This document shows, piece by piece, positions 24,689 to 33,036 of a stretch of 37,836 nt of DNA. Under the pieces are notes generated by a model. That model was given only the letters and a program-made list of their open reading frames with translations. It had not been told where the DNA came from and ran no database searches. The DNA comes from Parcubacteria group bacterium. Lineage in GTDB: Bacteria; Patescibacteriota; Minisyncoccia; Phycocordibacterales; JABMOB01. Position numbers and translations under genes: made by a program. Position 1 is the stretch's first letter; every line of letters starts with the position of its first letter. The stretch covers positions 1 through 37,836 of the forward strand of contig JABMOB010000026.1 in assembly GCA_013204345.1 (NCBI GenBank), given 5' to 3'.

Positions 24689-25495
24689 TTACAAACTAGT
24701 ATCTACCAACATCAACTTTATCTGAGAAATATTAACAGGACTCTTTAGAAGCACGTGACGAAAAGAATCTTCTGGATTTGTTTCTATACTAAACACTACT
24801 CCTAAAATTTTACTAAATAATCCGGGTAAGACAAAAATATCCCCAGAAACAATATCGATCTCACGAGGTACCATAACATCAAAATTACCACCTCCTTGTC
24901 CAATAATTTCTAAAGAAATATTGTTACGAACATTTACTACTTGTATTTTTTCTCCAGCAGTAGAATACAATTTTGCTTTAGAGGCCTGTCCATAAACCTC
25001 AATAATTTCCCCTAAAACAATACTTCCGTTAGCAAAAATTCTGTTCCCATTTTTCACGTCAAGATTACTACCCACATCCAATATAACGGTGTCATAAGAA
25101 GATTGTGGTGGTTTGACCAAAACAGTCGCAAGAATATTATTAGAAGTATTAGTTCTACTAAAAAGTTCTTTCAAGTCATTATTTTCCTTAACGAGGATAT
25201 CCCTATCCAAAAGAAGGAACTTCACAGAATCAAGTTCTGTTTTAAAAATATTGTTTTCTTTAATAAGATTATTCCTAGAACCAAGAAAACCACCGACCAT
25301 TCTTATATTTTGAGAAAAGAAATTGTCCGATCGCCATAATGGACGAGCAAGAAAGTTAAATATCCCACCAAAAAAAGATGGGAAAAAACTTTGAGCCAAA
25401 ATTACAAAAATAAGAAAAACGGCAACGACAAGAACTGGGAACATAACCCCTCTTGTTTTTTTACTTTTTTGAAGGTAAATCATCTTCGTTCGCAA
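24689..25495 (-). CDS. mreC: Rod shape-determining protein MreC
   Basis: N-terminal TM, coiled coil, and VLDVGSNLDVKNGNRIFANGSIVLGEIIEVYGQASKAKLYSTAGEKIQV. Confidence 0.88.
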   Translation of the reverse strand: MRTKMIYLQKSKKTRGVMFPVLVVAVFLIFVILAQSFFPSFFGGIFNFLARPLWRSDNFFSQNIRMVGGFLGSRNNLIKENNIFKTELDSVKFLLLDRDILVKENNDLKELFSRTNTSNNILATVLVKPPQSSYDTVILDVGSNLDVKNGNRIFANGSIVLGEIIEVYGQASKAKLYSTAGEKIQVVNVRNNISLEIIGQGGGNFDVMVPREIDIVSGDIFVLPGLFSKILGVVFSIETNPEDSFRHVLLKSPVNISQIKLMLVDTSL

Positions 25496-26522
25496 TTAAC
25501 ACTTCTTTGAAAGTTTCCATATCCTCTAAAATGATACCTGTGCCTCGAGCTACCGCAGTCAAAGGATCATCCGCAACATGAACGGGAATCTTTATATACT
25601 CTTCAAGTATAGGTCCTAAACCTTTAATCAATGCCCCTCCTCCAGCCAAGTAAACGCCTCTATGCATAATGTCAGACATAATTTCTGGCGGAGTCGCTTC
25701 AAGCACTTCTTTCGTAGACTCAATCAAAGTATCTATAGACTGTGATATCGCTTCACGAACATCCGAATCAGTAACAACTACCTCGCGAGGAAGACCTGTG
25801 ATTAAATCACGTCCTTTTATAACCGCCTCAAGAGAAGCTTCAGTAGGCACCACGGCTCCAATAGCAATTTTTATATCTTCAGCTGTTTTTTCTCCAATTA
25901 AAATTTTAAATTCACTTCGTATGTATGAAATGATATCCGTATTTAACTTATCTCCAGCTACTCGTAGATTTTTTGAACTAACAACACCTCCAAGAGAAAT
26001 AACTGCTATATCAGAAGTTCCTCCTCCTATATCAATTATCATATTGCCAACCGGCTCCATAACAGGCAGTCTCATACCAATAGCGGCAGCCATAGGTTCC
26101 TCTACAATATGCACTTCGCGTGCACCAGCATTCTTTGTAGCGTCACGCACAGCCCTTATCTCCACATTTGTAATACCAGAAGGTACTCCAACAACAACTC
26201 GCGGACCAAACATTTTTTTTGAATCTTTCTGAGCTTGATTAACAAGGTAAGTAATCATTTCCTCAGTCACCTCAAAATCAGAAATCACACCATCAACAAG
26301 GGGGCGAATTGCAATAATATGGGCAGGTGTTCGCCCAAGCATTTGTTTTGCCTGAGAACCAACCGCAACTACTCGACCAGTTTTCTGGTTTACAGCAACA
26401 ACAGAAGGTTCATTTAAAACGATACCTTTTCCGCGCACATACACAATAGTATTTGCGGTACCCAAATCAATGCCTATGTCGTGAGACGTAAGCGCATAAA
26501 AATTTTTTAATCTTTTAATCAT
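25461..26522 (-). CDS. mreB: Rod shape-determining protein MreB
   Basis: GIDLGTANTIVYVRGKGIVLNEPSVVA, IDIGGGTSDIAVISLGG. Confidence 0.96.
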   Translation of the reverse strand: MIKRLKNFYALTSHDIGIDLGTANTIVYVRGKGIVLNEPSVVAVNQKTGRVVAVGSQAKQMLGRTPAHIIAIRPLVDGVISDFEVTEEMITYLVNQAQKDSKKMFGPRVVVGVPSGITNVEIRAVRDATKNAGAREVHIVEEPMAAAIGMRLPVMEPVGNMIIDIGGGTSDIAVISLGGVVSSKNLRVAGDKLNTDIISYIRSEFKILIGEKTAEDIKIAIGAVVPTEASLEAVIKGRDLITGLPREVVVTDSDVREAISQSIDTLIESTKEVLEATPPEIMSDIMHRGVYLAGGGALIKGLGPILEEYIKIPVHVADDPLTAVARGTGIILEDMETFKEVLIANEDDLPSKK

Positions 26523-31326: not shown

Positions 31327-31569
31327 GTGGCAAAGAAATCAGTGTTTGAAACTCTTCGGGAAAAAATTGTGAAAATTATGACTCTGGCGAAGAAAATCAA
31401 CGACCCGGAAAAACTTCATCGAAACGGACTCCAGTTGGATAGTTTGCAACTCAAGATCGTCGAATCATCAAACGTTCTTTCTTGTCAAGAAATCATTGTT
31501 CTCATGTTGCTTATCGCCTGCGCAGAGCAATACCATGTGAGCAGAAGAAATCGCCTTTACAGCAAATAG
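31327..31569 (+). CDS. Hypothetical protein, 80 aa (GTG start)
   Basis: SD AAAGGAGA, own promoter upstream, CCCGCccaGCGGGTTTTTTT terminator downstream; no family recognised. Confidence 0.7.
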   Translation: MAKKSVFETLREKIVKIMTLAKKINDPEKLHRNGLQLDSLQLKIVESSNVLSCQEIIVLMLLIACAEQYHVSRRNRLYSK

Positions 31570-31635: not shown

Positions 31636-31681
31636 AATATCTCCAATATAGAGCGATATATCGCTCTATATTGGAGATATT
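31636..31681. repeat. Perfect 46-bp palindrome without loop
   Basis: AATATCTCCAATATAGAGCGATA|TATCGCTCTATATTGGAGATATT. Confidence 0.97.
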
Positions 31682-31764
31682 AAGCAAAAAAGAAGTCAAA
31701 TAAAAAGGGTAGCAGTTTTAGATGAAGTTCAATATAAATAAACCACCACAGTAAAAAACGCCAT

Positions 31765-31990
31765 TTTTGGATAAAATTCGAGACGAATTATGATTTTACA
31801 ACTAAGCTGTACTTATCAGTACAGCGAGGGAGAAAAATTATAATTCAACAAAGAAGATTGCTGAGGATAGTGTGACCAAGCTGAGATATTTTGAGAGAAT
31901 TTCGATGTAAAATAAAATTTTGACGACCACGCTGTATGATTAATACTGCACGGGAGTAAAAATTTTATTTGACGAAGAAATTATCCAAAA
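31765..31990 (+). repeat. 226-bp element: terminal inverted repeats plus two tandem homologous structured blocks
   Basis: TTTTGGATAA / TTATCCAAAA ends; block 1 about 31778-31860 and block 2 about 31898-31984, each an AT-rich stem enclosing a GCTGTA-hairpin with conserved GGGAG internal loop. Confidence 0.75.
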
Positions 31991-32001
31991 TTTCTCGGCG
32001 G

Positions 32002-33036
32002 CTATTTTTTTGAGATTATTGTTTTCTTGTAAGTATCTAAGTGTTCTAACGCAATACCCGTCCCCTTCACCACACAATACAGGGCATCTTCAGCCAAAAC
32101 CGCTTTCACACCAGTCCTACGAAAAATAAGTTCTGGTAAATTACGCAATTGGGAAGAACCTCCTGTCATAATAATTCCCCTATCAATAATATCAGAGGCA
32201 AGTTCTGGAGGGGTGTCTTGAAAAACATCTTTGACGGCTTTTACCATTTCGCGCAATTCTCTACTAATTGCTTTTACAATCTCATTTGTTTTTATTTCTA
32301 CCGAACGAGGAAGACCTGTAATAAAATCACGCCCTTTGATTGTGACAGCTAGTTCTTCATCCAGAGGAATTGCTGACCCTATTCTTATTTTTATGTTTTC
32401 CGCTGTCTTATCACCAATACCAAGATTGAAAGTTTTTTTAATATAATCGGTAATAGCATAATCAATTTTATTTCCGGCACATTTTACAGACGTAGAAGCC
32501 ACAATACCGCCAAGAGAAATTACAGCTACATCGGTCGTTCCACCGCCAATATCTACGATCATATGCCCCACGGCCTCTTGAATCGGAATACCCGCGCCGA
32601 TCGCAGCAAGAATCGGCTCTTTAACAACGTACGCATTTTTTGCACCAGCCTTGATAGCCGCTTCAATCACAGCGCGACGTTCGGTAGATGTCACCCCAGC
32701 AGGCACGGAGACTAAAACATCTGGCTTCACAAAGTTCCATTTTCCAAGAGCTTTGTTTATATAATACCGAAGCATAGCCTCCGTCACGCGATAGTCAGCT
32801 ATGACACCATCTTTCATCGGCCGATAAGCAATAATATTTTCTGGAGTTTTCCCAATCATATTCTTTGCCTCAAGACCAATAGCAAGAATTTTATTATCTT
32901 CTTCAGAAACAGCTACAACAGATGGTTCATTTAGAACAACACCTTTTCCAGGCACATAGACAAGAGTGCTCGTAGTTCCAAGGTCAATTCCTAGTTTTTT
33001 TGAAAAAAAAGACATAAATTTAAAAGTAAACCCCAA
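32002..33036 (-). CDS. Second MreB/Mbl-family actin-like protein
   Basis: KLGIDLGTTSTLVYVPGKGVVLNEPSVVAVSEED, VDIGGGTTDVAVISLGG. Confidence 0.94.
   Translation of the reverse strand: MGFTFKFMSFFSKKLGIDLGTTSTLVYVPGKGVVLNEPSVVAVSEEDNKILAIGLEAKNMIGKTPENIIAYRPMKDGVIADYRVTEAMLRYYINKALGKWNFVKPDVLVSVPAGVTSTERRAVIEAAIKAGAKNAYVVKEPILAAIGAGIPIQEAVGHMIVDIGGGTTDVAVISLGGIVASTSVKCAGNKIDYAITDYIKKTFNLGIGDKTAENIKIRIGSAIPLDEELAVTIKGRDFITGLPRSVEIKTNEIVKAISRELREMVKAVKDVFQDTPPELASDIIDRGIIMTGGSSQLRNLPELIFRRTGVKAVLAEDALYCVVKGTGIALEHLDTYKKTIISKK

Follow-up and report, generated by a model that had tools for sequence, protein, structure and literature searches.

Two adjacent copies of a MITE-like hairpin element beside mreB in a Patescibacteria genome

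Introduction

A structured, non-coding stretch between two convergent genes of a Parcubacteria group bacterium raises the question of whether it is a regulatory RNA or a piece of mobile DNA. The window analyzed here, that is, the whole stretch of 37,836 nucleotides of contig JABMOB010000026.1, contains at positions 31765-31990 a 226-bp segment located in a convergent gap of 432 bp, with an 80-aa ORF on one side and mreB on the other. The original prediction described this segment as two tandem structured blocks with compensatory changes, bounded by inverted ends, and offered as possible identities a tandem regulatory RNA, a type III antitoxin-like repeat RNA or a MITE-like element.

Several families of short bacterial repeats offer a frame for comparison. 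ERIC is an extragenic, imperfect palindrome of 127 bp with TA termini and a target duplication, which can sit at the 3′ ends of genes and whose effect on the mRNA depends on its orientation (PMC2229807, PMC10969869). Correia/NEMIS and RUP are dispersed hairpin MITEs of ~100-155 bp with TA ends, and Correia hairpins are present in transcripts (PMC2229807). YPAL/RU-2 (Yersinia palindromic) are palindromic mobile repeats with target duplications, as shown by the comparison of empty sites (PMC2229807). The anatomy of ERIC, Correia and RUP comprises a size of 100-200 bp, TA termini, hairpin transcripts and a target duplication, together with a mobiliser that is usually unproven (PMC2229807; PMC10969869).

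Results

The mreB locus and its two hairpins

Both blocks are present in the sequence as originally described, with TTTTGGATAA at 31765-31774 and TTATCCAAAA at 31981-31990, and so is the 124-nt offset between them, while no ORF of at least 60 aa was found that accounts for the element. The plus strand of the stretch folds at -79.8 kcal/mol, whereas its dinucleotide-shuffled versions give -40.0 +/- 3.9 (z -10.1, 0/200), and the minus strand folds less well (z -7.4). The predicted fold consists of two independent hairpins (31758-31873 and 31880-31999), and the stretch is best read as two adjacent units, each with its own hairpin, and not as one 226-bp element (Table 1). The stems exist as described, but they are longer than initially drawn, and the two ends described as bounding the blocks are not partners of one another, as the predicted fold pairs each of them with the opposite arm of its own unit. 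No Rfam family scored above its gathering threshold for the stretch, weak miRNA-type matches lying far below it. Around the doublet, the window encodes mreB, the unassigned 80-aa ORF and a DNA polymerase III delta′ gene, and a TTTTTT run follows the outer stem of unit 1 on the mreB strand.

Table 1. Coordinates of the genes and structural features around the doublet in the window
Feature	Position	Strand	Remarks
80-aa ORF	31327-31569	+	Without Pfam match
Unit 1, imperfect hairpin	~31758-31873	+ (folded strand)	Covariance-model match 31765-31870
Unit 1 apical hairpin, GCTGTACT-tatc-AGTACAGC	31806-31825	+	Flanked by conserved purine-rich internal loops ACAACTAA / GAGGGAG
Unit 2, imperfect hairpin	~31880-31999	+	Model match 31889-31994; 3′ end abuts mreB stop codon
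Unit 2 apical hairpin, GCTGTAT-gatta-ATACTGC	31931-31949	+	Conserved GUA/UAC stem
mreB TAG stop codon	32002-32004	-	7 nt from model end of unit 2
mreB	32002-33036	-	MreB_Mbl (MreB/Mbl), E 3e-133; doublet adjoins its 3′ end

Directly past the terminator of the 80-aa ORF there is a perfect palindrome, ATATCTCCAATATAGAGCGATATATCGCTCTATATTGGAGATAT, with 20-bp arms (31637-31680), which is possibly a minus-strand terminator or another small repeat. The window also encodes two MreB/Mbl paralogues 6 kb apart, both on the minus strand (25461-26522 and 32002-33036), the second of which adjoins the element.

Covariation and the folded strand

When 59 copies are compared at 35 base pairs, in a covariance-model alignment that is fitted to the assumed structure and whose pairing figures lean toward it, standard pairs fill 88.8% of the cells, versus 61.9% after shuffling and 33-44% with slid partners; the slide control and the fold energies of the raw sequences agree. 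Double-change cells amount to 532 versus 158, and changes on both sides of the pair (double compensatory) occur at 34 of the 35 base pairs. The compensatory changes claimed from just two blocks hold across this larger set. Most stem positions drift, with compensation, while several loop positions are strongly conserved, the loop purines being kept at 90-100% across genomes of the order (A17 93%, G18 100%, G19 90%, A47 93%, G71 95%, A100 98%). Formally, G18 forms a lone pair with C101, and the conserved loop positions would fit A-G/G-A mismatches beside short helices.

At well-paired positions, G-U outnumbers A-C by 124 to 23 on the window plus strand, and in 119 of 125 copies the model strand, which corresponds to this plus strand, gives a more stable fold than its complement (mean difference of 10.4 kcal/mol). 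DNA also tolerates G-T better than A-C, and the G-U excess therefore identifies the strand, not whether it acts as RNA or as single-stranded DNA. The advantage of the plus strand, originally deduced from a G.U pair, was thus borne out for the folded strand, but not for a plus-strand regulatory RNA, which would be antisense to the abutted gene.

Copies and distribution

Two covariance models were used, the first one built from 5 units and the second rebuilt from 59 copies. With the first model, the genome that harbours the window (756 kb in 47 contigs, the window being contig 30) was found to contain 8 copies at 6 loci, that is, six copies beyond the two in the window. At the level of the order, this model detected the element in 19 of 60 genomes, the richest of them holding 17 copies, and at the level of the phylum the second model detected it in at least 55 of 384 genomes at E 1e-4, a figure that the strict filters keep below the real count. 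Iterating the covariance model over relatives, as originally suggested, did recover homologues with paired covariation. A scan of ~85,000 species genomes with the core pattern returned matches whose named lineages were all Patescibacteria (Nomurabacteria, Taylorbacteria, Zambryskibacteria, Parcubacteria, Paceibacterota, Patescibacteria), and the phage and plasmid collections searched gave no match to the element. As far as sampled, the element is specific to Patescibacteria.

Only 5 of 125 copies map inside an ORF. Most loci carry a single copy, and two doublets, both of them in the genome of the window, have the 124-nt offset; the tandem arrangement is not general to the element.

Ends, target duplications and empty sites

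In several genomes where the ends could be called, copies measure 121-127 bp, starting and finishing in TA. Terminal inverted repeats with defined ends (TAGGACTTACGC...GCGTAAGTCCTA) are found in Taylorbacteria RIFCSPLOWO2_12_FULL_43_20 (G023) and its relatives, the copies of G023 being near-identical and ending abruptly (TAGGACTT...AAGTCCTA); tips in other genomes vary, yet they match within a copy. The 5-bp flanks of 23 copies from G023 and its congener G438 agree at 82 of 115 positions, against 38.5 when shuffled (z 8.7), and nine of these copies show exact 5-bp duplications, whereas flank lengths of 2-4 and 6-9 bp gave no signal in the same 23 copies. A wider set contains 12 exact 5-bp repeats, with 0.4 expected, in G023, G438, G041, G117 and G160. 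In addition, the copies that G023 carries at L052 and L058 are missing from the orthologous intergenic regions of G438. The copies are insertions with a 5-bp stagger, and the element is mobile. No recognisable 5-bp duplication surrounds the copies of the window itself, which are older.

The element is short, non-coding, multi-copy and dispersed, with terminal inverted repeats and a fixed-length target duplication, and it is regarded as MITE-like (ERIC-like) and non-autonomous. Among the identities first proposed, that of a MITE-like element is the one favoured by the 5-bp duplications, the TA-ended inverted termini, the dispersed copies and the empty orthologous sites. A target motif with TAA on the gene strand, counted by eye in 5 of the 12 exact duplications, was too weak to be claimed. 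Two half-copies of G023 (L324 and L325) retain the left arm only, suggesting decay through internal breakage.

The 124-nt offset of the doublets equals the length of the element. In DNA searches, unit 1 is closest to the single unit that follows rpsG at G000:C6 (G000 being the genome of the window) and unit 2 to the first unit of the doublet at G000:C18, both with 89% identity. As each unit has its nearest relative elsewhere, the doublets seem to have arisen through independent insertions next to a copy already in place.

Attachment to stop codons

When genes of at least 80 aa are considered, 68 of 177 distinct copies have a stop codon of the opposite strand at a distance of up to 12 nt from the model 3′ end; only 4 of the 177 have one beside the 5′ end (p 5e-16). 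Farther out, between 12 and 120 nt, the two sides are alike (about 43 versus 34). All 6 loci in the genome of the window abut stop codons, the genes concerned being pyk (identified by its translation), rpsG, mreB and three more. At L050 and L058, the terminal TAG/TAA of the element itself serves as the stop, at L077 and L079 the native stop lies 0-2 nt outside the element, and at L124 (AATAA) and L128 (TAAAT) it falls within the duplicated target. Neighbouring genes are mostly unrelated from copy to copy, and the rpsG site, occupied in 6 genomes, showed no element in most of the 55 rpsG-bearing genomes. The abutted gene is thus transcribed into the complement of the folded strand, an orientation that speaks against a cis-acting RNA role in its 3′ UTR. 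The near-absence of the opposite orientation at stop codons may reflect a target preference that is itself oriented, or else selection that keeps the stable strand out of the mRNA.

Two other apparent regularities were discarded: a depletion of TGA among the abutting stops, strong on 125 copies, gave p 0.065 on the larger set, and a recurrent neighbour gene of ~498 aa was an artefact of the 1500-bp locus flanks. At L063 (1501-2003, G031), a 90-aa gene whose product resembles HU-type DNA-binding proteins lies between two oppositely oriented copies.

Matching of the arms within copies

Over the outermost 12 bp, the left arm of a copy matches its own right arm at 8-10 of 12 positions, and those of other copies in the same genome at about 5-7. 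In 7 of 8 groups, none of 2000 permutations reached the observed value, the exception being G023 (19/2000), whose copies are near-identical. Left and right arms agree within a copy and differ between the copies of one genome, whereas the recognition of linear terminal repeats by one transposase would predict shared tips. Two readings would account for this pattern, namely recognition of the hairpin itself or mutual correction of the arms, and correction alone does not explain why the mismatches are conserved. At the rpsG site of G027 (L042), the outer stem runs through the last rpsG codons, a mirror image of which lies downstream of the element; the palindrome gives the impression of having extended into rpsG.

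Search for a mobiliser

No longer, transposase-bearing element with the same ends was found in 750 kb of G438, and inspection of DDE_Tnp_1 and Y1 loci in G023, G041, G044 and G047 revealed no autonomous partner. The DDE_Tnp_1 transposases examined in G023 and G041 were rejected as mobilisers on account of their different ends (CTTTGAATTACGAAAC and others). In these two genomes, the ends CTTTGAATTACGAAAC define another repeat family (L319, L322, L323, flanks of L050 and L052), carried by DDE_Tnp_1 elements of ~1 kb and by short derivatives beside two copies of the element.

Y1 transposases occur in 40 of 60 genomes, in 14 of the 19 that bear the element and 26 of the other 41. The Y1 profile gave no match in G031, with its 13 copies, nor in G005, G010, G037 and G051, and many genomes with Y1 are devoid of the element; with no association across the 60 genomes, a RAYT/Y1 mobiliser was dismissed. 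The single Y1 gene in the genome of the window (L005, 1320-2095, contig 9) has TTGTCAAGGTTCAACCTTGACAA-type palindromes before, inside and after its ORF, and is a REP/RAYT-like unit unrelated to the element.

Discussion

The stretch beside mreB is probably a pair of neighbouring copies of a mobile, MITE-like element that is ~124 bp long, non-coding and, as far as sampled, specific to Patescibacteria, and for which recognition of the folded strand and insertion with a 5-bp stagger can be inferred. A recombinase or transposase acting in trans would recognise the folded strand, either as an extruded cruciform or as a single-stranded hairpin, instead of linear terminal repeats, and the same enzyme would insert the element with the 5-bp stagger. 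Conservation would then fall on the folded shape and the loop purines and not on the sequence of the arms, which would drift copy by copy while still matching each other. Insertions at stop codons may persist either through the own TAG/TAA of the element, which would end the frame at once, or through a native stop kept just outside the element or within the duplicated target. At the mreB locus, unit 2 sits at the stop codon and unit 1 lies directly past unit 2, one element length away. This explanation leaves the orientation bias at stop codons unaccounted for.

In view of the stop-codon pattern, an attractive alternative is a 3′-UTR RNA that acts in cis, as an attenuator, a terminator or a stabiliser of the mRNA, and that is maintained by selection behind certain genes, among them rpsG, mreB and pyk. 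The one orientation of the 68 copies within about 12 nt of a stop, the recurrent occupation of the rpsG site and the T-run after the outer stem of unit 1 on the mreB strand speak for it. However, the mRNA carries the complement of the best-folding, G-U-tolerant strand, the adjoining genes mostly differ between copies and the rpsG site is only patchily occupied. In addition, abutting copies show no clear excess of T-runs behind the element (20/49 versus 25/76), and copies with target duplications are also found elsewhere. With the folded strand antisense and the rpsG site empty in most genomes, this explanation was rejected as unlikely. The tandem regulatory RNA of the original prediction meets the same antisense obstacle, and its tandem layout is not general. 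On the other hand, the structured tandem repeats of the window could recall a type III antitoxin RNA or an integron attC-type recombination site, folded-strand recognition being a feature of attC sites. Among the neighbours of the window (Table 1 and the delta′ gene) there is no ToxN-type or toxin-like gene beside the repeat, and neighbours at the other loci are mostly unrelated to each other. The copies are dispersed hairpins of ~120 nt, mostly with one unit per locus, and bear 5-bp duplications in several genomes, which makes both identities highly improbable.

Another alternative is an ordinary MITE of a DDE transposon, whose covariation would arise neutrally through template-switch (quasipalindrome) correction between the arms and whose loops would be remnants. 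Replication is known to correct long palindromes, and the covariation of palindromic arms can also originate neutrally in this manner; moreover, 5-bp duplications and TA-ended termini are usual MITE features, and the within-copy match of the arms extends to the very tips. Correction, however, should erase the internal mismatches as well, yet the loop purines are kept across the order, and the GU:AC ratio of 124:23 would need a strand-biased mutation process, which leaves this alternative as fairly unlikely. A further possibility is a repeat of the REP/REPIN kind that a Y1 (RAYT/IS200-type) transposase would mobilise in single-stranded form; the resemblance lies in the folded-strand specificity, the hairpin shape and the extragenic 3′ location, and Y1 genes are common in these genomes. 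Target duplications of 5 bp are not expected from Y1 transposition and weaken such a reading, while the multi-copy genome and the four others without Y1, the many Y1 genomes free of the element, the unrelated palindrome of the Y1 gene in the genome of the window and units of ~124 bp instead of 20-40 also count against it; it can be considered very unlikely.

Regarded as a MITE-like mobile element, the repeat is like ERIC in its size, TA termini, target duplication and 3′-end location, a comparison of anatomy and not of sequence. It differs from ERIC in the host phylum, in the 5-bp duplication measured here, in the conserved internal-loop purines and phylum-wide covariation, and in the tight, one-sided abutment to stop codons. 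With Correia/NEMIS and RUP it shares the ~100-155-bp scale, the TA ends and the dispersed hairpin MITE character, but RUP, which inserts at TA, has the same ends as an IS630 element, whereas the element described here shows a 5-bp duplication and no related IS was found. YPAL/RU-2 are similarly palindromic mobile repeats with target duplications and empty-site evidence, but they measure 168 bp, lack TA termini and have duplications of 3-26 bp. REP/REPIN sequences with RAYT are likewise extragenic hairpins, and differ in size, in the 5-bp duplications and in the absence here of an association with Y1 transposase genes. In the open-licence literature, no earlier description of the element was found, and it is considered a previously undescribed MITE-like element of a new family. 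What is new in it is the strand-specific, loop-conserved fold kept across the phylum, together with the one-sided attachment to stop codons.

Patescibacteria have tiny genomes in which few mobile elements have been studied. It can be tentatively proposed, although with considerable doubt, that the phylum contains a family of mobile hairpins moved as a folded strand, in which loop purines would replace the terminal sequence as the signal, and whose directional insertion at stop codons would be carried out by a recombination enzyme. If it is true that the arms drift while the loops stay fixed, it would be the shape that is recognised and not the terminal sequence, which would be unusual for target-duplicating elements. 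These data are also a warning that strong RNA covariation in Patescibacteria genomes can stem from mobile DNA. A structured, phylum-wide mobile element whose fold is strand-specific and whose preference for stop codons is one-sided can serve as a lead to an unrecognised transposition system.
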